Below, one piece after another: positions 1 to 11,106 of a stretch of 11,106 nucleotides of DNA (positions within the stretch are counted from its first letter, which is position 1; each line of letters begins with the position of its first letter). The notes beneath the pieces were generated by a model, which had not been told where the DNA came from, did no database searches, and saw only the letters and a program-made list of their open reading frames with translations. The position numbers were made by a program, and so were the translations under genes. The stretch is from Desulfobulbaceae bacterium (lineage in GTDB: Bacteria > Desulfobacterota > Desulfobulbia > Desulfobulbales > Desulfobulbaceae), in the NCBI GenBank assembly GCA_026986885.1, contig JALSNT010000341.1, positions 1-11,106 of the forward strand, in the 5' to 3' direction.

Positions 1-270
1 TTCATGGCTGAGCAAGGACTGGCTGCCCATTTCCCGAAGATAAATATTCATGGGATCGTTGCTCGTCCCTACCCGGCCGCCGTCACTCCTTCTTCGATCT
101 CGACCTGTACGACGATCGTCCGAAATTCTTCGCTCGGTCTTTCCCAAAGCAAACTCCCACTCATCTCTATTCCCTTCATCGGATGATTTTACCATGGAAT
201 CATCAAGATCAAGGGTAAACTCTTCGCCGGTTTCCAATTCCAAATCCGAATCCGAATCGTTACAGTCCAT
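1..270 (-). CDS. rpoD: RNA polymerase sigma-70 factor, N-terminal part (probably RpoD), cut by window edge
   Basis: Ninety codons are visible from an ATG at 270 running off the left edge. The last 20 residues, with DPMNIYLREMG at residues 72-82, match sigma-70 region 1.2, which in primary sigma factors reads close to DPVRMYLREMG. The position directly downstream of dnaG on the same strand supports RpoD, the housekeeping sigma factor that directs RNA polymerase to promoters. Ahead of region 1.2 I see no recognisable region 1.1: residues 1-25 are strongly acidic and residues 47-62 are an Arg/Asp-rich tract with RRISD, DRRTG and RDRRR in succession. The start is uncertain. In-frame ATGs also exist at 312 and 351, but the peptide they add looks non-coding, and none of the three has a strong ribosome-binding site. 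The 202-bp gap to dnaG (271-472) holds no other convincing gene. A group 2 (RpoS-like) sigma factor is the main alternative. Confidence 0.78.
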   Translation of the reverse strand, partial: MDCNDSDSDLELETGEEFTLDLDDSMVKSSDEGNRDEWEFALGKTERRISDDRRTGRDRRRSDGGRVGTSNDPMNIYLREMGSQSLLSHE

Positions 271-472
271 TACTCTCTGCCGGAGACTCCGCTCCTCTCC
301 AGAACTCAACATCCTGTACGCCGGCAAAAAAACAATGCCGACGCACCCCATTTTTCCCTGCGGCTTTTCTTGTTAACAACACGCAACGATCAAACCTGAA
401 TTGACAAAAAACAACACTGGTTTCTACTGTTGCGGCCTCCTTTTAGAGTACGGATTTGTAATGTACCAGTAT

Positions 473-2425: not shown

Positions 2426-3154
2426 ATGGCGCCGGACATCGACAAAATGCTCTCATACGAGATCAAAAAGGAGATTGCCGACCGATATTTCGGCTTTCGC
2501 AAACTCATCGAAGAGGATATCAAGGAATACGACAGCCTTGTTATTACCGCCTTCAGAAGCCTTGAGCAAAAAATCGGCTTTGATCTGGTCAGGCTGTATA
2601 TTCTACTGAAAAGTGAACAGCTTATCCATGACTTTTTTCAAGTAGCCGGCCTTGATGAGCGACTTTTTTACGATCCCTACCTGGCGGAATCGCCCACCAT
2701 CAGAAAACGGGTGTTCGCCGATATGCAGCCGCACGGTCTGACCAGAAAGAGCCGGTTTGTCAATATGGTGGCCGACAGGTACAGGGATCTCGTCAACCAT
2801 CTGGAAGAATACAGGGACAACCTGGAGGAACTCAAGGAGGAACAGGAAACCATTGCCGAGGAGATCAACCTCTTCTATCAAAAAAACGACCTCAGCACCA
2901 TCATGGGATTTCTGCGCGGCCTCGGCGGCACTGGGTCGTACAAGTCCGGCGCCATGGAAGGCGGCCTGACACCACAGACCGGCCAAAACCTGGAAAAAAA
3001 GATGCGGGTCAATCCGCCGCCGCCCGTGGAAAAAACACTGCCGGACCTGCCGGAAATTCGTCCATACAGGGAAATAAAGCACGAACTGGAACCCATCATT
3101 GAACGGGCCTACCGCCTGCAGGGCGAGCCGGAAATGCGCCAATTCATTTCTTAA
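2426..3154 (+). CDS. Conserved-looking hypothetical coiled-coil protein
   Basis: I do not recognise this 242-residue protein. It has no signal peptide or membrane segment and is rich in charged residues, so it should be cytoplasmic. Residues 1-85 look like a helical domain, including RYFGFRKLIEEDIKEYDSL. Residues 115-150 (HLEEYRDNLEELKEEQETIAEE region) should form a coiled coil. A Gly-rich stretch (FLRGLGGTG, about 162-170) and a Pro-rich linker (PPPP at 197-200) lead to a final helical tail. The ATG at 2426 has an excellent ribosome-binding site, GGGAGG, 5 bp upstream. Its stop overlaps the start of the antiporter gene (TAATG), so the two are co-transcribed and probably translationally coupled. 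Codon use resembles the neighbours, with no sign of transfer. A role linked to the antiporter is inference from position only. Confidence 0.85.
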   Translation: MAPDIDKMLSYEIKKEIADRYFGFRKLIEEDIKEYDSLVITAFRSLEQKIGFDLVRLYILLKSEQLIHDFFQVAGLDERLFYDPYLAESPTIRKRVFADMQPHGLTRKSRFVNMVADRYRDLVNHLEEYRDNLEELKEEQETIAEEINLFYQKNDLSTIMGFLRGLGGTGSYKSGAMEGGLTPQTGQNLEKKMRVNPPPPVEKTLPDLPEIRPYREIKHELEPIIERAYRLQGEPEMRQFIS

Positions 3155-4113
3155 TGGCAACAGGTTATTCGATCATGCTGCATGCCGTTACCCTTGTAGT
3201 CGGCGGCCTGATTATGCTGGTCGGCGGCGGTGAAGCGCTGGTCGGCGGCGCGACCAGACTGGCCGCTCGCCTGGGGATGAAGCCGCTGTTGATCGGCCTG
3301 ACAATAGTGGCTTTCGGCACCTCGGTTCCAGAGCTTTTTGTCAGCCTGACAGCGGCTTTTCATGGATATCCCGACATCATGATCGGCAATGTCATCGGCT
3401 CCAACATAGCCAATGTCGGCCTTATCCTGGGTTGCTGCGCCCTGCTCGCCCCGCTCACCCTGACCATAGGGGAAGTATGGACGGAACTGCTGCTGGTGAC
3501 CGGCGGCGGAGTTCTCCTCATGCTTTGCAGCGGTTACGGCTTTTTTCCCCGGGCCATGGGCCTGCTCTTTGTCCTGACCCTGATCGGCTATACCATAGTG
3601 GTCGGCCTTAACGGACGTAGCGGACAAAACGACGCTCGACAAGGTGGGCAACCGCCGGAGCAGACGATGGGATTACCGCTCATGCTGGCCCTGATTCTCC
3701 TGGGCCTGCTGCTGCTGGCGGCCGGCTCAAACCTCTTTATCAGAGGCGCCGTTGATCTGGCCCGTTATTTCGGTATCAGCGAGTTGATCATCGGCCTGAC
3801 CCTTACCGCCATCGGCACTTCCCTGCCCGAACTGGCGGCCTCCCTGTCCGCCCTGCGGCATAATGAATCCGGCCTGTTGATCGGCAATGTTATCGGTTCC
3901 AACATGTTTAACCTGTTCATGGTCCTGGGCCTGACCGGTCTGCTCAAACCCTTTCCACTGTCGTCGGTCCTTTTACATCGCGATCTACCGGTCATGCTCG
4001 CCTTTACCCTGGTCCTGATCCCCATTCTCCACAAAACCGGGGGCACCAGGCGTCTGCACGGCCTGCTGTTGACAGGCGGCTATCTCTTGTACTGTCTCAG
4101 TTTGATGGAGTAA
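3154..4113 (+). CDS. CaCA-family calcium/sodium antiporter (YrbG-like)
   Basis: This 319-residue inner-membrane protein is about the normal size for a bacterial K+-independent Na+/Ca2+ exchanger of the YrbG type, with about ten hydrophobic segments. Both inverted alpha repeats are intact. Repeat 1 has GTSVPE at 55-60 and GNVIGSN at 78-84; repeat 2 has GTSLPE at 221-226 and GNVIGSN at 244-250. The two Glu residues in these motifs are the ion-binding acids of the family. A hydrophilic loop at about 153-171 separates the two halves, as expected. I place the start at the ATG that overlaps the upstream stop (TAATG), which suits reinitiation since no ribosome-binding site is visible. An ATG at 3175 (MLHAVTL) fits the usual family N terminus and is the alternative. 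The cation actually moved cannot be told from sequence. The gene ends 26 bp from the convergent pstB stop, with no terminator hairpin visible between. Confidence 0.93.
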   Translation: MATGYSIMLHAVTLVVGGLIMLVGGGEALVGGATRLAARLGMKPLLIGLTIVAFGTSVPELFVSLTAAFHGYPDIMIGNVIGSNIANVGLILGCCALLAPLTLTIGEVWTELLLVTGGGVLLMLCSGYGFFPRAMGLLFVLTLIGYTIVVGLNGRSGQNDARQGGQPPEQTMGLPLMLALILLGLLLLAAGSNLFIRGAVDLARYFGISELIIGLTLTAIGTSLPELAASLSALRHNESGLLIGNVIGSNMFNLFMVLGLTGLLKPFPLSSVLLHRDLPVMLAFTLVLIPILHKTGGTRRLHGLLLTGGYLLYCLSLME

Positions 4114-4139: not shown

Positions 4140-5033
4140 TCAGACAAAACGCCCGGTAATATAATCCTCGGTCAGCCGGTGGCGGGGATTGGTGAAAACA
4201 CGATCGGTGCTGCTTACCTCAATCAGGTTACCGAGATGGAAATAAGCGGTTCTCTGGGAGATCCGGGCCGCCTGCTGCATATTATTGGTAACGATGACAA
4301 TGGTATACTGCTCCCGCAACTCGGCTATTAAATCCTCAACCGTGGCCGTGGCGATCGGATCAAGGGCTGAGCAGGGTTCGTCCATGAGGATGACTTCCGG
4401 CCGCACGGCTATGGCCCGGGCAATGCACAATCGTTGCTGCTGACCACCGGACAGTCCCGTGCCCGGCTGATTCAGCCGGTCGTTGACCTCTTGCCACAAA
4501 CCCGCCTTTTGCAAAGAGCCTTCAACTATCGCGTCCAGCTCCGTCCGGGATGATGCCAGGCCGTGGATGCGCGGCCCGTAAGCCACATTTTCATAGATGG
4601 ATTTCGGAAAAGGATTTGGTTTCTGGAAAACCATACCCACTTCGGCCCGCAGCGGTACGACATCGATATCCCGGCCATAAATATTGCGCTCATCCAGGAA
4701 TATATCGCCGCTTACCCGGCAGGTATCAATGGTGTCATTCATGCGGTTCAGGCAGCGCAAAAAAGTGGATTTGCCGCAACCGGACGGTCCGATCATGGCC
4801 AGAACCTCATTGGCGGCCACATCAATGGAAACATCCTTAATCGCATGTTTGTCCCCATAATAGACATTGACCTCCCTGCAGGTCATGCGGGGATTATCGA
4901 CAAAGGGCTCGCCGACGGTTCGCCGGTCTTCTCTGCCGGTCAACTCCCCGTTCATGCCGGCTCTGTGCAAGCCCTCTGTTTTTGCAGAAGAGACATCCCG
5001 GATACCGGAAGCTGCATCTATGGTTGTTGCCAT
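4140..5033 (-). CDS. pstB: Phosphate ABC transporter ATP-binding protein PstB
   Basis: PstB is the cytoplasmic ATPase that drives PstC/PstA. From the ATG at 5033 it has 297 residues: a variable 50-residue N-terminal extension, then the ABC domain. Walker A is GPSGCGKST at 82-90, the Q-loop Gln is at 137 (VFQKPNPFP), the signature LSGGQQQR is at 194-201, and Walker B VILMDE is at 214-219 with catalytic Glu219. The start is chosen for its AGGA ribosome-binding site 6 nt upstream; an upstream in-frame ATG at 5117 would add 28 residues that do not look like PstB. One oddity is the switch (H-loop) position: PstB normally reads VTHNMQQAAR, but here it is [10 protein letters not shown], with Asn250 encoded by AAT (4286-4284). 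The gene is last in the run, 103 bp after pstS, and probably shares the promoter in front of pstS. Confidence 0.97.
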
Positions 5034-5136: not shown

Positions 5137-6195
5137 TTATTTACCGAGTACCAGCGGCTTCAATACCCCGGCATCGGCAGCGGACTGCCTGCGCTCGGCA
5201 TCAGGCGCGGGGATCAAACCCTTGTCGGCAAGGTAGCCCTCCGGCCCCCAGGCCCTGTCACTGGTAAACTCGGCGATATATTCAGTCATACCGGGGACGA
5301 TACCGACATGGGAATCCTTGACATAAAAAAAAAGCGGCCGGGACAGTGGATATCTGCCATCGGCAATATTATCAAAGGTGGGAGCAGCCCCACCGACAAA
5401 TGAACCCTGAAGTTTGTCCCCGTTCTGATCCAGATAGGAAAAGCCGAAAATCCCCAGAGCATCGGGATCGGCCTCGAGTTTCTGAACGATCAGGTTATCG
5501 TTTTCACCTGCCTCAATATAGGCACCATCCTCACGGACAGCATGACAGAGAGCCTTGAATTTCTTTTTATCCGTCTTTTTCAATGCCTTGATCCACCCGA
5601 TCTTTTGGCAACCGCCCTGCATGGCCAGCTCAACAAAGGCGTCACGGGTTCCCGAGGTAGGCGGAGGTCCGAAAACCTCAATCTTCATGGCCGGCAGAGA
5701 CGAATTGACCTCCTTCCAGGTTGTATACGGGTTGGCAACCGTTTTTTCACCGCCCCTGGGATCGGGCACGTCTCTGGCCAACGCAAGATAGATATCTTTT
5801 TTGGTCAGCTTCAGCTGCGGTGCGGCCCTGGAACCGGCCAGAACGATACCGTCATAACCAATTTTAACCTCGGTGATTTTTATTACCCCGTTTTTCCGGC
5901 ATTTTTCATATTCAGACATTTTGATACGGCGGGAAGCATTGGTAATGTCGGGAGTATTGATATCATTGCCGGCACAAAACAGTTTCATACCGCCGCCTGA
6001 ACCGGTGGACTCTATTTTAGGTGTTTTAAATTTTGTTGTTTTACCGAACTGTTCAGCCACGGCAGCGGCAAAGGGATATACCGTTGAAGAGCCGACAATT
6101 GCAATATAATCACGACCGGATGCCCCGAAACCATTTAAGGCCGCAGCAGCAACAAGCATGGAGGCCGCAGTAAGGATTATACTTTTCTTCCACAT
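5137..6195 (-). CDS. pstS: Phosphate-binding periplasmic protein PstS
   Basis: PstS captures phosphate in the periplasm and delivers it to PstC/PstA. From the ATG at 6195 it has 352 residues, starting with a signal peptide: MWKK, a hydrophobic stretch, and likely cleavage near residues 25-26 (NGFGA/SG). There is no lipobox. Phosphate-binding loops of the family are visible: GSSTVYP at 35-41, STGSGGG at 63-69, [10 protein letters not shown] around Asp83, and SGTRD at 181-185. The start is supported by AGGAAG about 8 nt upstream and by the signal peptide beginning there; an earlier in-frame ATG at 6267 would add 24 residues ahead of the signal peptide. The gene lies between pstA and pstB rather than first in the operon, and has its own regulatory region at 6196-6349 with a phased repeat array. 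High demand for the binding protein would explain a separate promoter. Confidence 0.97.
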
Positions 6196-6292: not shown

Positions 6293-6298
6293 TTTATA
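6293..6298 (-). promoter_or_regulatory. Candidate -10 of the pstS promoter
   Basis: TATAAA on the minus strand starts 9 bp after the last unit of the phased array (6308-6314). PhoB-activated promoters place the box about 10 bp from the -10 with no good -35, and that is the layout here. The predicted transcript would start near 6286 and have a leader of about 90 nt before the pstS ATG. A second -10-like word, TACAAT at 6287-6282, is the alternative. Confidence 0.55.
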
Positions 6299-6307
6299 AT
6301 CAGGCCA

Positions 6308-6347
6308 TATTAGAATTGGATTAGAAAATGATTAAAAAGAGATTAGA
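6308..6347 (-). promoter_or_regulatory. Candidate Pho box array upstream of pstS (four 7-mers, 11-bp period)
   Basis: In the direction of pstS transcription the four units are TCTAATC (6347-6341), TTTAATC (6336-6330), TCTAATC (6325-6319) and TCTAATA (6314-6308), each separated by exactly 4 bp. A 7+4 direct repeat on one DNA face is the geometry bound by PhoB dimers, and phoB lies in the same locus. The unit sequence differs from the enterobacterial CTGTCAT box. The array begins 2 bp after the pstA stop codon. PhoB as the bound protein is inferred from geometry, placement and the matching array at 9793-9832. Confidence 0.75.
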
Positions 6348-6349
6348 CC

Positions 6350-7663
6350 TTACCGGGGCCGTTCAAATTTCTTGCGCAAAAAGACGGCCAGTCCATTCAT
6401 GCTGATTAAAAGGGCCAGTAACACCATGATGGCGGCCGAAGTTCTCTCGACAAATGCCCGCTCCGGTGCATCGGCCCAGAGATATATCTGTACCGGCAAC
6501 ACCGTTGCCGGGTCGGTAAAGCCGTGGGGGACGTCCGCGATAAAGGCCACCATTCCGATCATCAACAGAGGTGCGGCTTCCCCCAGGGCCTGGGCCATAC
6601 CAATAATGGTCCCGGTCATCATGCCGGGCATGGCCAGGGGAAGGATATGGTGAATAATAGCCTGCATTTTGGAAGCACCGATTGCAAAGGCCGCTTCACG
6701 AATGGACGACGGCACCGACTTCAACGATGCCCTTGAGGTGATGATAATGGTCGGCAGGGTCATCAGGGTGAGTACCAGGCCGCCGACCAGGGGTGATGAT
6801 CGGGGCATATTGAAAAAATTGAGAAAGACCGCCAGACCGAGCAGGCCGAAAATAATGGGGGGGACGGCGGCAAGATTGTTGATATTGACCTCGATAAAAT
6901 CGGTCCACCTGTTGCGGGGGGCAAATTCCTCAAGATAAACGGCCGTTGCCGCCCCTATGGAAAAGGAAAGGGTCAGGGTAACAATGAGCGTGAAAAAAGA
7001 ACCGGCTACCGCCCCATGAATACCGGCAAGTTCGGGCTCCCGGGAATCACCGGCGGTAAAAAAAGTGGTATTAAATTTTTCTTTCAGGAGTCCGCCGGCC
7101 ACCAGCCGGTCAATCCAGCCAATCTGTTGATCGGTCAGTCGCCGTTCACTCTCCGGGACGTCACGGCGGATATACCCTTTAAGAAACATATCCACCTCAT
7201 CATCGACGGGCAGCCATATCTTGAGGGTTTTACCGATCAGGCTGGTGTCGTGGATGATATGATTCTGTAAAATAAAGGCCGCCCCGATACTGATCAGCTT
7301 ATTTAATTTACGTTTATCGCGGCGGTCTTTGACTTCCGGAAACATCCGCTGCAGGGATTTCTTTACCAGGCCGCCGTAATCTGCAGCGGCAAGATTATCG
7401 ACATCAAACATGGCCGGATCAAAATGTACCTTGAGCAGTATCTCGGCCTGTTCAAAGGCCGACCAGCCATTGACAACAATAGATCCAAAAAGAATTCCTA
7501 AAAAACCAATAGTTACAATAACGGCTCCCAAACCGCAACGCCTGAACCAGCGTTCTTTACGATAGCGGCGCGCCAGGCAGCGATTAATCAGCTCCATGGT
7601 GCTTGCACCATTCTCTGCGGCCATATTTGATGATCCGTTTTCAGGGTCAGGTCGATGATCCAT
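6350..7663 (-). CDS. pstA: Phosphate ABC transporter permease PstA, long form with DUF3333-type insert
   Basis: PstA is one of two inner-membrane subunits of the phosphate channel. From the ATG at 7663 it has 437 residues, well above the roughly 280-300 of the short form. The N-terminal 40 residues are cytoplasmic, then one membrane helix (about 44-64), then a roughly 140-residue hydrophilic section (about 70-205) of the kind called DUF3333, presumably periplasmic. The MetI-type permease domain follows from about 213. The coupling (EAA) loop is REAAFAIGASKMQAIIHHILPL at about 322-343, and the LGEAAPLLMIG motif is at about 360-370. The start has AGGTGG just upstream, only 7 bp after the pstC stop, so the two are coupled. 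Alternative in-frame ATGs at 7624 and 7597 lack good ribosome-binding sites. The stop abuts the pstS regulatory array. Confidence 0.95.
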   Translation of the reverse strand: MDHRPDPENGSSNMAAENGASTMELINRCLARRYRKERWFRRCGLGAVIVTIGFLGILFGSIVVNGWSAFEQAEILLKVHFDPAMFDVDNLAAADYGGLVKKSLQRMFPEVKDRRDKRKLNKLISIGAAFILQNHIIHDTSLIGKTLKIWLPVDDEVDMFLKGYIRRDVPESERRLTDQQIGWIDRLVAGGLLKEKFNTTFFTAGDSREPELAGIHGAVAGSFFTLIVTLTLSFSIGAATAVYLEEFAPRNRWTDFIEVNINNLAAVPPIIFGLLGLAVFLNFFNMPRSSPLVGGLVLTLMTLPTIIITSRASLKSVPSSIREAAFAIGASKMQAIIHHILPLAMPGMMTGTIIGMAQALGEAAPLLMIGMVAFIADVPHGFTDPATVLPVQIYLWADAPERAFVERTSAAIMVLLALLISMNGLAVFLRKKFERPR

Positions 7664-7670
7664 ATGCCAC

Positions 7671-9068
7671 CTATTCGTATTTTTCCCTGTATCTGCGCAC
7701 AACGTAAAGGGCGATAACATTGAGAATCATGGTTATGACAAAGAGCAGCAGCCCCAGGGCAAAGGCGGCTAAAGTTTTGGGACTGTCGAACTTCTGATCA
7801 CCGACCAGCAGCGTTACAATCTGAACCGTCACCGTTGTAACCGACTGCAGGGGATTCGCGGTCAATCCAGCGGCAAGACCGGCGGCCATGACCACGATCA
7901 TGGTCTCACCGATTGCCCGGGAAGCCGCTAACAAAATAGAAGCGACAATGCCCGGCAGGGCCGCCGGCATAATAACCCGGATAATGGTTTCGCTCCGGGT
8001 TGCTCCCAACCCTAAGGATCCATCCCGGATGGACTGGGGAACGGCATTTATCACATCATCGGCCAGGGACGACACAAAGGGAATAATCATAATCCCCATG
8101 ACCAGCCCGACAGCCAGACCGCTTTCAGATGACACATCAAGGCCAAGCAGTACGCCGACATGACGAATAAAGGGCGCGACCACCAGGGCGGCAAAAAAAC
8201 CGTAGACAACCGTGGGCAGCCCGGCCAGAATCTCCATCACGGGCTTGGCCCAGACCCGCACTTTATTACCCGCATATTCAGAGAGATAAATTGCCGACAT
8301 CAGGCCGACAGGCACAGCTACCGCCAGGGCAATCCCGGAAATCATAAAGGTGCCGGCCAGTACCGGCAGCACGCCAAAGCTGCCCGAGGAACCGGCCTGA
8401 TCGGCACGCAGGGCCATCTGCGGACTCCATTTCAGACCGAAAAGAAAATCCGTCAGGGGCACCTGTCTAAAAAAACGTAATGATTCAAAGAGTACGGAAA
8501 GCACAATGCCGATGGTAGTAAAGACGGCAATGGTCGAACAGGCAATAAGACCGTAGCGGATAAACCGCTCAACATGATTCCTGGCCCGCATCTCCGGCCG
8601 GATCCTTCGGTAGACAAGCAAACCGGAAAAAAGGGCGACCGCCGTCAGGACGGCGGCCAGCAGGAGACGGGCAAGGTGCTGCATTGCAATATATCGCTCG
8701 GCCGCCTGCTGCAATACGGGCCTGATATCCCGGCCGGCAACATGGCCGGCGATCAGATTATGGAGATCATTGACCAGAAGATTCAACTGATCCGGCGGTA
8801 GATTCTGCAGGGCAGGCGGCAGGGTCTGCAGGGTAAGCGCCGTCAGAATGGAATCGGAACATGCCGCCCAGATCGCTATAATAAGAAGGGCCGGCAGCAG
8901 GCAGCCAAGCGCTGTCAGCAGTCCGTAATAGCCCGGTAACGAGTGCAGCGGCTTTTTTCCTCCCCTGCCGTCCGCCAACCGGGAAAGAGAAAAGGCCTTT
9001 CTCTTTCCCTGCATGTAGGCGCCGGCGGAAAGAATCAGCAGAAAAAACAGAAAAAAACCGACAGACAC
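7671..9068 (-). CDS. pstC: Phosphate ABC transporter permease PstC, long form
   Basis: PstC pairs with PstA to form the phosphate channel. From the GTG at 9068 it has 465 residues, against about 300 for the short form. Extra N-terminal sequence comprises a first membrane helix (2-18), the family signature LHSLPGYYGL at 41-50, a second helix to about 68, a loop (about 70-128) with a Pro/Leu-rich segment, and a third helix (about 130-153). The permease domain follows, with the coupling loop IRDGSLGLGATRSETIIRV at about 347-365 and SRAIGETMIVVMAAG near 383-397. I choose GTG 9068 because GGGGAGG lies 9 nt upstream, inside the end of phoU, and the phoU stop is 1 bp away. An in-frame GTG at 9086 would overlap phoU by 17 bp and has no such site. 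Confidence 0.95.
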   Translation of the reverse strand: MSVGFFLFFLLILSAGAYMQGKRKAFSLSRLADGRGGKKPLHSLPGYYGLLTALGCLLPALLIIAIWAACSDSILTALTLQTLPPALQNLPPDQLNLLVNDLHNLIAGHVAGRDIRPVLQQAAERYIAMQHLARLLLAAVLTAVALFSGLLVYRRIRPEMRARNHVERFIRYGLIACSTIAVFTTIGIVLSVLFESLRFFRQVPLTDFLFGLKWSPQMALRADQAGSSGSFGVLPVLAGTFMISGIALAVAVPVGLMSAIYLSEYAGNKVRVWAKPVMEILAGLPTVVYGFFAALVVAPFIRHVGVLLGLDVSSESGLAVGLVMGIMIIPFVSSLADDVINAVPQSIRDGSLGLGATRSETIIRVIMPAALPGIVASILLAASRAIGETMIVVMAAGLAAGLTANPLQSVTTVTVQIVTLLVGDQKFDSPKTLAAFALGLLLFVITMILNVIALYVVRRYREKYE

Positions 9069-9069
9069 C

Positions 9070-9732
9070 TCAGTCCGCCTCCCCACGCACTATTTCGCCT
9101 TCAACAAGATAAATAATTTCTTCGGCGATATTGGTTGCCCGGTCGCCTATCCGCTCAAGATGACGGGCGAGGAGATACAGATTAACGAGACAGGCGGCGT
9201 GCCCCGGTCCGGCATTGAGCTCGCGGATAATTTCCTTGTACGCCTGGTTACGGAGCCGATCGACCTCCGCGTCTTCAAGAAAAATCAACCTGGCCAGATG
9301 CACATCTTCGGTGACCAGGGCATCCAGGCTGTGTTTAAGCATATTCATAACCTTGCCGGACATGGGATCGTAATCAACCATTGTCCTGATACCGGCATCC
9401 TTGTTGATCACCTGTACCCGTTTGGCAATATTGACGGCAATATCACCAATCCGCTCAAGCTCATTGTTGATCTTGATTACGGCGACCAGAAAACGGAGGT
9501 CACGGGCAACCGGCTGGTGCAGGGCCAGGATTTTCAGACATTCCTCCTCCACCTCGATTTCCATTTCATCAATCTCCCAGTCGGAGCCGATAATCTCTTC
9601 AAGAAGATCAGGGTCCCTGGTCTCAATGGCAAGGCAGGCCTTTTGCACCCGGTCTTCCACCAGGGAACCAAGCACCATGAATTTTTTCTTTAACCGGTCT
9701 ATTTCCCGGTGAAAGGTCAGCTGATGGACCAC
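9070..9732 (-). CDS. phoU: Phosphate signalling and transport regulator PhoU
   Basis: PhoU is a cytoplasmic all-helical protein with two three-helix bundles that bind metal ions. It represses Pho signalling when phosphate is plentiful by linking the Pst transporter to PhoR. From the GTG at 9732 it has 220 residues, the usual length. The two metal-site motifs are present exactly 100 residues apart: ERIGDIAVNIAK from 93 and ERIGDRATNIAEE from 193. The GTG at 9732 is preferred because GGAGGG lies 7 nt upstream. The in-frame ATG at 9747 contains that site as codons 1-3 and lacks one of its own. phoU is first in the minus-strand run, whereas in enterobacteria it is last. Its promoter probably lies within the phased array at 9793-9832. 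Confidence 0.96.
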   Translation of the reverse strand: MVHQLTFHREIDRLKKKFMVLGSLVEDRVQKACLAIETRDPDLLEEIIGSDWEIDEMEIEVEEECLKILALHQPVARDLRFLVAVIKINNELERIGDIAVNIAKRVQVINKDAGIRTMVDYDPMSGKVMNMLKHSLDALVTEDVHLARLIFLEDAEVDRLRNQAYKEIIRELNAGPGHAACLVNLYLLARHLERIGDRATNIAEEIIYLVEGEIVRGEAD

Positions 9733-9777
9733 GATGTATCCCTCCATTTATGCACTCATTAACAGATATGACCAAAA

Positions 9778-9783
9778 ACACTA
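9778..9783 (-). promoter_or_regulatory. Candidate -10 of the phoU-pstC-pstA promoter
   Basis: TAGTGT on the minus strand keeps the first, second and last bases of the TATAAT consensus. It starts 9 bp after the nearest array unit, the same distance as in front of pstS. The leader to the phoU GTG would be about 40 nt. The hexamer alone is weak; the equal spacing at both promoters is the supporting evidence. Confidence 0.45.
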
Positions 9784-9792
9784 CTTCGTTCA

Positions 9793-9832
9793 TTTTAAGA
9801 TTTGGTTAGGCTCATGTTAGGATTTCATGAGG
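9793..9832 (-). promoter_or_regulatory. Candidate Pho box array in the phoU/phoB divergent region
   Basis: On the plus strand, units at 9793 (TTTTAAG), 9804 (GGTTAGG), 9815 (TGTTAGG) and 9826 (CATGAGG) recur every 11 bp. On the strand of phoU they read CCTAACA and CCTAACC for the two best units. The two middle units are near identical; the outer two match 4 of 6 core positions. They align with the pstS array to give a common unit of about YCTAAY. The array lies between phoU and phoB, so it could serve phoU activation and phoB autoregulation, but its orientation favours phoU. A perfect 6-bp inverted repeat (ctcatg at 9811-9816, catgag at 9826-9831) is nested in it. Confidence 0.65.
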
Positions 9833-9877: not shown

Positions 9878-9973
9878 ATGGAAATGTACAATGATGATGA
9901 ATACGGCAAATATTACGTGGAGAAAAAACTACGTGGGAAAGGCAACTATCCTGGTCGTGGAAGACGACACTGA
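9878..9973 (+). CDS. Possible 31-codon upstream ORF overlapping the phoB start
   Basis: An ATG at 9878 with TAGGA 5 nt upstream opens a frame of 31 codons ending at TGA 9971-9973. It overlaps the first 41 bp of phoB in another frame. The peptide begins MEMYNDDEYGKYYVEKKLRG and is rich in charged residues and Tyr. Its ribosome-binding site is at least as good as that of phoB, so ribosomes might read it and affect phoB expression. It could equally be chance. A weak promoter-like pair (TTGCAA 9846, TAGGAT 9868) would start transcription too late to include it. Confidence 0.22.
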   Translation: MEMYNDDEYGKYYVEKKLRGKGNYPGRGRRH

Positions 9974-10640
9974 TATCCAGCAGCTTGTCAGCTACAACCT
10001 GATTAAAGCCGGCTTCAATGTAACCTGTGCCGATTCCGGTGAAGAAGGGCTGCAGATACTTGAGCAGGAAAAAATTGACCTGATATTGCTGGACCTCATG
10101 CTTCCCGGTCGGGACGGCATGGAGATCTGCACGATGATCCGGGCAAAAAATTTTGATTCGCAGCCCCCTGTTATCATGCTGACGGCAAAAAGCGAGGAAG
10201 ATGACATCATCACCGGCCTGGCCTGTGGTGCGGACGACTATATCACCAAACCCTTCAGCCCCCGGGTGCTCATCGCCCGAATCCAGACCCAGCTGCGTAA
10301 AAAACAGGAAAAAATTCTCACCAGACAACGGCCGGGACAGGAAGAAGTCCTGACGATTCACTCCATGACCATTCACCGCGGCCGACACGAAGTCACGGTC
10401 AACGGCGAACCCGTTCATCTGACGACAACGGAGTTCACTATCCTTGAACAATTAGCCGGTCGTCCCGGCTGGGTATTTACCCGGCAACAGATTATCGACC
10501 ACTGCCGGGGGTATGAATATATCATCACTCCGCGTGCCGTGGACGTACAGATCTTCGGACTGCGAAAAAAATTAGGGAAGACCGGTGCCTGCATAGAAAC
10601 CGTTCGTGGTATAGGCTATCGTATTCGGGAAGAAAAATAG
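9933..10640 (+). CDS. phoB: Phosphate-regulon response regulator PhoB
   Basis: PhoB is the DNA-binding response regulator of the Pho regulon. From the GTG at 9933 it has 235 residues. The receiver domain (about 3-120) shows the acidic pocket E10/D11, phospho-acceptor Asp54 in LILLDLMLPG, Thr84 in VIMLTAK, and Lys106 in DDYITKPF. The winged-helix OmpR/PhoB domain (about 140-232) shows LTTTEFTILEQLAGRPG, VFTRQQIIDH, PRAVDVQIFGLRKKLG and VRGIGYR. I prefer GTG 9933 because it gives the usual short PhoB N terminus (GKATILVVEDD) and has GGAG 10 nt upstream. The in-frame ATGs at 9891-9897 would add 12-14 residues with no good ribosome-binding site. The phoR-phoU-pst context supports PhoB over other OmpR-family regulators. 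It is the likely binder of the two phased arrays. Confidence 0.94.
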   Translation: MGKATILVVEDDTDIQQLVSYNLIKAGFNVTCADSGEEGLQILEQEKIDLILLDLMLPGRDGMEICTMIRAKNFDSQPPVIMLTAKSEEDDIITGLACGADDYITKPFSPRVLIARIQTQLRKKQEKILTRQRPGQEEVLTIHSMTIHRGRHEVTVNGEPVHLTTTEFTILEQLAGRPGWVFTRQQIIDHCRGYEYIITPRAVDVQIFGLRKKLGKTGACIETVRGIGYRIREEK

Positions 10641-10646
10641 GAGAAT

Positions 10647-10715
10647 ATGGTGCATCGTCCCGGCATTTACTTTTCTGTAGATCGACGTTTCCACGTCACT
10701 GTCGGCGCCCCATGA
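10647..10715 (+). CDS. Possible 22-codon coupling ORF between phoB and phoR
   Basis: An ATG at 10647 lies 6 bp after the phoB stop, with TAGGAG, partly inside that stop, as its ribosome-binding site. The frame runs 22 codons, starts MVHRPGIYFSVDRR and ends with a TGA that overlaps the phoR ATG as ATGA. phoR has no ribosome-binding site of its own, so this frame would carry ribosomes to the phoR start. The peptide itself has no recognised motif. Its main role, if real, would be translational coupling. Confidence 0.4.
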   Translation: MVHRPGIYFSVDRRFHVTVGAP

Positions 10716-11106
10716 AAAACACACGACTTTTCTGGCAAATCTTTCTGGCCGTCCTCCTGATTGTTATCGGCTCCATTGCCATCGGTTCCTGGTACGAAAG
10801 CGCAATGATAAAGTCGTTTTATTACCAGCAGATGAGGGAGGATATCGGTAACCGTACCTTACTGCTTCGCCCTCATATCCAGCAATTGCTCAGCGCCAAT
10901 CCCAATGGATTACAGGAATTTTGTCGACAGGCAGGCAGGGCGGCATCGACCCGCATTACCGTCATCAACGGCCGGGGAAAGGTCCTGGCCGACTCCAATG
11001 AAGATCCTGCCCGCATGGACAACCACGGCAGCCGCCCGGAAATCAAAATCGCCTATGCGGGCAAGACGGGTTCCTCACTTCGTTTCAGCAAAACACTCAG
11101 CCGCAG
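10712..11106 (+). CDS. phoR: Phosphate-regulon sensor histidine kinase PhoR, N-terminal part, cut by window edge
   Basis: The first 131 codons are present. PhoR is the membrane kinase that phosphorylates PhoB under phosphate limitation. The N terminus has a membrane helix at about 7-26 (FWQIFLAVLLIVIGSIAIGSW), then a helical stretch with DIGNRTLLLRPHI. The start of a sensory fold typical of delta-type PhoR follows: RITVINGRGKVLADS at 81-95 and PARMDNHGSRPEI at 99-111. The HAMP, PAS, His-kinase and ATPase domains would lie beyond the window. The ATG at 10712 is the only reasonable start, as the upstream frame is open but has no ATG, GTG or TTG back to the phoB end. It lacks a ribosome-binding site and overlaps the stop of a small ORF (ATGA). 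Identity rests on the sensor-domain motifs and on adjacency to phoB. Confidence 0.9.
   Translation, partial: MKNTRLFWQIFLAVLLIVIGSIAIGSWYESAMIKSFYYQQMREDIGNRTLLLRPHIQQLLSANPNGLQEFCRQAGRAASTRITVINGRGKVLADSNEDPARMDNHGSRPEIKIAYAGKTGSSLRFSKTLSR

Follow-up and report, generated by a model that had tools for sequence, protein, structure and literature searches.

A probable Pho box with a changed core at the pst locus of a Desulfobulbaceae bacterium

The pst locus of a Desulfobulbaceae bacterium carries, upstream of pstS, an array of four short direct repeats with a period of 11 bp (positions 6309–6348, minus strand), which was delineated by inspection of the sequence, shuffling controls and a matrix scan. 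We consider it very likely that this array is an operator, a Pho box, for the PhoB encoded at 9891–10640 of the same locus. Judging from the sequences, the half-site is (T/C)(C/T)CTAA(C/T), with C at the position where PhoBs of the Arg201 type have G.

The window, by which we mean the entire stretch of 11,106 nucleotides, is a pst locus in which phoU, pstC, pstA, pstS and pstB all lie on the minus strand. The run is headed by phoU (9070–9747; PF01895), followed by the permease genes pstC (7671–9086) and pstA (6350–7720 as the longest frame; the Pfam search was done on 6350–7648), by pstS for the phosphate-binding protein (5137–6195; PF12849) and by pstB for the ATPase (4140–5033). On the plus strand and divergent from phoU, as in relatives, lies the gene for a PhoB-type response regulator (9891–10640), which combines a receiver domain with a Trans_reg_C winged helix (PF00072 and PF00486) and has the recognition helix RAVDVQIFGLRKKL, including Gly201. 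The next gene on the plus strand (10712–11104) is truncated by the end of the window and has a weak sCache_like match under the cut-off of that family; we infer its role, presumably that of a PhoR-type kinase. The closest matches to PstS share 99 to 80% identity with it, and among the 120 matches listed the first with a named source, a PstS of a Desulfobulbaceae bacterium, stands at 79%; most of the other named matches in that list come from genera of Desulfobulbales. Four further loci (L001, L002, L003 and L032) share with the window the gene order phoU-pstC-pstA-pstS-pstB, and mostly gammaproteobacterial loci with a similar PstS have the order pstS-pstC-pstA-pstB instead. Elsewhere in the window, a gene for a 242-residue protein with no Pfam match at 0.001 (2426–3154, plus strand) adjoins a gene of the Na/Ca exchanger family (3154–4113). 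A frame beside dnaG (1–351, minus strand) resembles the N-terminal part of the principal sigma factor, whose region 4 falls outside the window.

The pstS array begins a single base after the stop codon of pstA. In the frame defined by relatives, its units are GTCTAAT (6348–6342), TTTTAAT (6337–6331), TTCTAAT (6326–6320) and TTCTAAT (6315–6309). The initial annotation had placed four plus-strand 7-mers here (TATTAGA at 6308, GATTAGA at 6319, GATTAAA at 6330 and GATTAGA at 6341); all four are in place, and their positions bear out the exact 11-bp period that it had described before pstS. Read on the minus strand, these are TCTAATC, TTTAATC, TCTAATC and TCTAATA, followed by nine bases and then by the −10-like TATAAA (6293–6298, minus strand). 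The 9-bp distance claimed at the outset is therefore correct in that frame and becomes 10 bp in the frame of the relatives, counted from the last TTCTAAT. A Pho box consists of two or more direct repeats of about 7 bp, separated by 4-bp spacers and set about 10 bp upstream of a −10 element; by definition it also stands in for a −35 element and, as the binding site of phosphorylated PhoB, is required for induction when phosphate is low. The window has four such units, with TATAAA after 10 bp.

Self-similarity of the four 7-mers is 26/28 at period 11, compared with 17–19 at periods 8–10 and 12–15, and none of 2000 shuffles matched the observed value. Within the window, YTAAY recurs at period 11 only before pstS (four units) and before phoU (two exact units). 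Dinucleotide shuffling of the whole window never produced three such units in 300 trials, and shuffling of the pstA–pstS gap did so in 9 of 20,000; four units appeared in none of those 20,000.

The second array lies between the divergent phoU and phoB genes and may serve both (9794–9822, minus strand). It consists, at period 11, of TCCTAAC (9822–9816), GCCTAAC (9811–9805) and a weaker third unit, TCTTAAA (9800–9794), with a −10-like TAGTGT (9778–9783, minus strand) exactly 10 bp past it. Both arrays were scored with a matrix learned from the phoU arrays of 22 other loci, the window being left out. In overlapping three-unit frames the scores are 23.5 and 19.6 for the pstS array and 21.5 and 21.3 for the phoU array; shifted frames give 11.7 for the former and −1.8 and −2.5 for the latter. 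The best score elsewhere in the window is −3.5, so that the two arrays are its sole positive matches. A third candidate, spotted by eye before the gene at 2426 (TTTAATA-tagg-CTTAAAT), was dropped because its matrix score is −4.6, or −3.5 when the opposite strand is read.

Conservation was analyzed in the best 80 of 582 loci from a reference-genome scan with a PstS alignment, supplemented by whole-genome searches. Gene order, not taxonomy, defined the two sets of loci: in one pstA precedes pstS, in the other pstS precedes pstC. The pstS-first set is mostly gammaproteobacterial and also contains some records from alpha- and betaproteobacteria, as well as a single record titled Nitrospirota and another titled Acidobacteriota. 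Removal of near-copies reduced the upstream regions from 73 to 47 for pstS, from 24 to 23 for phoU and from 16 to 15 for pstC, and left the 50 pstS-first regions unchanged. A repeat-motif program was then run over periods 9–13 with no starting motif and with the window left out. Before phoU (n = 22) it returned TCCTAAC on the coding strand, with a log-likelihood of 274 at period 11 versus 49–83 at the other periods. The array is present in all 22 of these loci, from which the matrix itself was learned, with one poor unit each in L035 and L147. Before pstC (n = 15) the same core emerged (103 at period 11 versus 35–43), the two weakest sites falling on the other strand. As a positive control, the pstS-first loci (n = 50) gave the classical TGTCATA, with 268 at period 11 versus 59–85. 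Position 3 of the phoU units of relatives is C in 56, T in 10 and G in none (n = 66), and the units of the window likewise have C or T in place of the G of the enterobacterial CTGTCAT type with its TGTCA core. The proposal in the initial annotation that YCTAAY replaces CTGTCAT was right, and one of the changed bases tracks residue 201 of PhoB, as described below.

The site before pstS is more variable. The period-11 motif search that had been suggested as a check succeeded before phoU and failed before pstS, where 46 upstream regions gave period 9 as the best (297, with 209 at period 11) and no CTAAC-like motif; from the appearance of the sites, we put the period-9 optimum down to conserved pstA coding ends. 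When the phoU-trained matrix was applied to the 47 thinned pstA–pstS loci, arrays were found in 22, the window included, 21 of them in gene direction. The corresponding figures are 68 of 9400 for shuffles, 0–1 of 47 at six other periods, and 404 of 8800 for random 320-bp stretches of the same loci, a background that has the true arrays among it. The same scan found an array in 1 of the 50 pstS-first regions, and before pstC in 11 of 15 loci, 10 in gene direction. Conservation of the units before pstS orthologues, the other check proposed at the outset, thus holds for the 22 loci and fails in the remaining 25, where no array exceeds the threshold; the pstS site is therefore less conserved than the phoU site. 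These 25 regions, the visibly AT-rich gap and the likeness of units whose spacers are unlike are what one could cite for an array that plays no part in regulation and arose either as an AT-rich repeat by chance or as a tandem duplication now in decay. We give that explanation almost no credence, as shuffles never produce four units and the arrays are conserved, with a fixed distance to the −10 element, in other genomes.

A genome-wide search for three CTAAY units at period 11 covered 146 genomes belonging to the order of G001; the genomes of L003 (Desulfogranum) and L032 (Ca. Desulfobulbus) are members of this order. The search gave 49 places in 41 genomes, compared with 13 places for the reversed control pattern. 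Thirty of the 49 were obtained as loci, and 28 of these precede phoU, pstC, pstA or a PstS-type gene. Fourteen stand before phoU, pstC or pstA (L081 being assigned by its place in L032), and another 14 lie 17–96 bp from the longest frame of a PstS-type gene too distant to be found by tblastn with the PstS of the window; five of these genes were confirmed by Pfam and nine by eye from their shared N-terminus. The other two loci, L130 and L142, have no visible phosphate link. Among the 19 remaining matches, two are phoU arrays already seen in L154 and L146. The motif learned before phoU therefore picks out phosphate-uptake genes of other branches. In four of the loci (L134, L135, L137 and L139, at about 1400–1620) arrays stand back to back, with a PstS-type gene on one side and a porin gene on the other, identified as Porin_5 by Pfam in L134 and by eye in the other three. 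This arrangement suggests that the porin gene may be phosphate-regulated in these genomes.

The geometry of the putative promoters is also conserved. Across 54 arrays, TANNNT follows the last unit at exactly 10 bp in 18 and at exactly 21 bp in 14; one or both offsets occur in 30 of the 54, no other offset is found more than five times, and none of 5000 shuffles reaches that. The 21-bp offset is 10 bp plus one further, degenerate unit. The reading of the pstS site as a Pho box in the initial annotation gains support, at the level of sequence, from the arrays, their conservation, the −10 spacing and the gene context. These features would fit a mechanism in which PhoB, phosphorylated when phosphate is low, binds side by side on the head-to-tail half-sites of period 11 and brings RNA polymerase to the −10 element located 10 bp downstream. 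The pstS array would then raise expression of pstS to pstB from within the operon, and the phoU array would drive phoU and the genes behind it.

Recognition helices were taken from 122 distinct PhoB-like proteins and numbered after E. coli PhoB. E. coli-type PhoBs have Arg201 and Trp184; the PhoB of the window has Gly201 and Arg184. Gly201 is found in 66 sequences; their sources are L182 and the two orders to which G001 and G149 belong, some records being titled Deltaproteobacteria. Gln198 accompanies Gly201 in 64 of them, Ala or Ser194 and Thr191 in all 66, and Arg184 in 61, the window among these. The 44 Arg201 sequences (16 from Pseudomonadota, 26 from the class of Desulfacinum, and one genome each of Acidobacteriota and Nitrospirota) all have His198, Thr194 and Trp184. 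At position 177, Asp or Glu occurs in 32 of the 44 Arg201 sequences, and at least 62 of the 66 with Gly201 have a non-acidic residue there. Seven of the PhoB-like proteins have Asn201. Loss of an acidic residue at 191 was discarded as a mark of the Gly201 group, since 26 of the 44 Arg201 sequences have Tyr there. Together with two nested Ser201 sequences, the Gly201 sequences form one clade (68 sequences; support 100/99), which implies a single origin. One Gly201 genome of the class of Desulfacinum, G156, is an outlier; its phoB (L182) starts at a contig end. This genome has three TAAY triples: in one (L263) the units are mixed, with a weak PhoB-like match lying 0.9 kb further along, and the other two have no neighbor among the query genes.

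In the E. coli PhoB–DNA structure, Arg201 is reported to bond a guanine, with no particular one named; the same source states that W184R abolishes activation in E. coli PhoB (PMC3973317). With Trp184 gone from the Gly201 clade, its sigma contact cannot simply match that of E. coli. The hypothesis that Arg201 contacts the G of the half-site predicts, for PhoBs that keep Arg201, boxes with G in place of the C of the window. Upstream of phoB in 28 loci with Arg201 (26 belonging to the class of Desulfacinum and two to one Acidobacteriota genome), motif discovery returned TGTaACA at period 11, with a log-likelihood of 162 versus 38–61 at the other periods; in the two-unit model G has a frequency of 0.98 at the switch position, and 23 of the 28 sites score above 10 bits. 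To avoid bias, a neutral scan left the switch base free over 330 bp upstream of phoB, taking one array per locus, the first met if there were several. Triple arrays were found in 30 of 63 Gly201 loci, with C in 70, T in 13, G in 4 and A in 3 of 90 units. They were found in 16 of 28 Arg201 loci, close relatives included (L013, L183), with G in 37, A in 10, T in 1 and C in none of 48 units. Shuffles gave 18 of 3150 and 3 of 1400, respectively.

This co-variation bears on whether the arrays could be sites for another regulator of the OmpR family and not for the adjacent PhoB. Direct repeats of about 11-bp period are common across that family, with KdpE and mycobacterial PhoP among the members reported to use direct repeats, and the searched genomes are rich in candidate regulators (first-look counts of 54–270). 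However, the arrays precede phoU, pstC and PstS-type genes of more than one branch, and also phoB in some Gly201 genomes, and the switch base follows residue 201 of the neighboring PhoB. We therefore regard another regulator as quite improbable and retain PhoB as the candidate ligand of the arrays.

Given a Pho box, the cause of the one-base change is less certain. Our preferred explanation, held with moderate confidence, is that replacement of Arg201 by Gly, together with His198 to Gln and Thr194 to Ala or Ser, caused it. Base and residue may have changed independently, each drifting in the same ancestor: Gly201 arose once on the tree, so that common descent alone could account for their joint change, and residues 194, 198, 200 and 184 also differ. 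Against this, residue 201 of the recognition helix is reported to bond guanine in E. coli (PMC3973317), and it is a guanine that was replaced. The nested Ser201 pair (L009 and L156) also argues against independent drift: it has TTTTAAC, TTTTAAC and TCTTAAC before pstC, and is perhaps a second shift at the switch position, in two genomes whose units before pstS are mixed (n = 2). Such drift seems rather unlikely to us. In the two Ser201 genomes (loci L265 and L266) the TTAAC units before pstC (at about 1500–1527) resemble the cyanobacterial box. A broader proposal, offered tentatively and with somewhat less than even confidence, is that in this Desulfobacterota clade the DNA word of PhoB (Arg201 to Gly, TGTAACA to CCTAAC) and its sigma-70 contact (Trp184 to Arg, with residue 177 mostly uncharged) switched together, the 11-bp array and the 10-bp distance to the −10 element staying fixed.

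With the matrix, genomes of Desulfobulbales and their relatives can be searched for sites of phosphate control, the core of which is unlike the E. coli consensus. Gly201 with CTAAC and Arg201 with GTAAC, both found among Desulfobacterota, form a natural pair for testing how the residues of an OmpR-family regulator correspond to the bases they read. Judged by E. coli, a PhoB with Arg184 should be inactive, yet here it occurs naturally with conserved, well-formed promoters. If our proposal is true, the clade is a natural experiment in which the specificity of an OmpR-family regulator changed with promoter geometry kept, and the nested Ser201 pair with TTAAC would be a second step in the same code. 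We found no description of a CTAAC Pho box in Desulfobulbales, or of its tie to residue 201, in the open-access literature searched.

Several known systems resemble the one described here. Desulfovibrio vulgaris is a sulfate reducer of the same phylum. Its PhoB box is reported as a (c/t)GT(n)AC repeat (PMC3333781), with a site before por that reads AGGTTACAGCATAGTTAC (PMC6456213), and a gel shift with PhoB has been shown for this system. The complement of that site has GTAAC twice at period 11, the spacing seen in the window; compared by the box alone, it keeps a G at the position occupied by C or T in the window. The cyanobacterial SphR box, given as CTTAACCT with an 8+3 arrangement (PMC1906773), shares with the window the period of 11, a TAAC core and at least three units, and the pstS2 site CTTAATTC-CTTAATTT-CTTAATCA comes near the units of the window. 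It differs in having T and not C at the switch position and belongs to a distant lineage, again as compared by the box alone. In the class of Desulfacinum, PhoBs with Arg201 are related to that of the window and have boxes of period 11, with TGTAACA; unlike the window, these boxes have G at the switch position, and the PhoBs retain Arg201, His198 and Trp184.

The E. coli or gammaproteobacterial PhoB box (CTGTCAT, 7+4) likewise consists of coding-strand direct repeats of 11 bp before pst genes, and in E. coli it lies 10 bp before a TAN3T/A −10 element (PMC1906773). We weighed whether the box of the window is a flipped one, its GTTAG being the E. coli GTCA read from the other strand. No flip is claimed, because in motif discovery CCTAACA falls on the coding strand, as TGTCATA and TGTAACA do, and the fixed positions of the motifs align. 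Compared in this orientation with the classical half-site TGT(C/A)A(T/C)A, the window has the same strand and period, and the core CTGTCAT is altered from G to C at position 3 and from C to A at position 5; the regulator has Gly201, Gln198 and Arg184 where E. coli PhoB has Arg201, His198 and Trp184. Pho boxes are known to vary between species along with the contacts of the regulator (PMC4415409). Overall, the system described here is of a known kind, represented by a lineage variant whose specificity has probably switched by one base.
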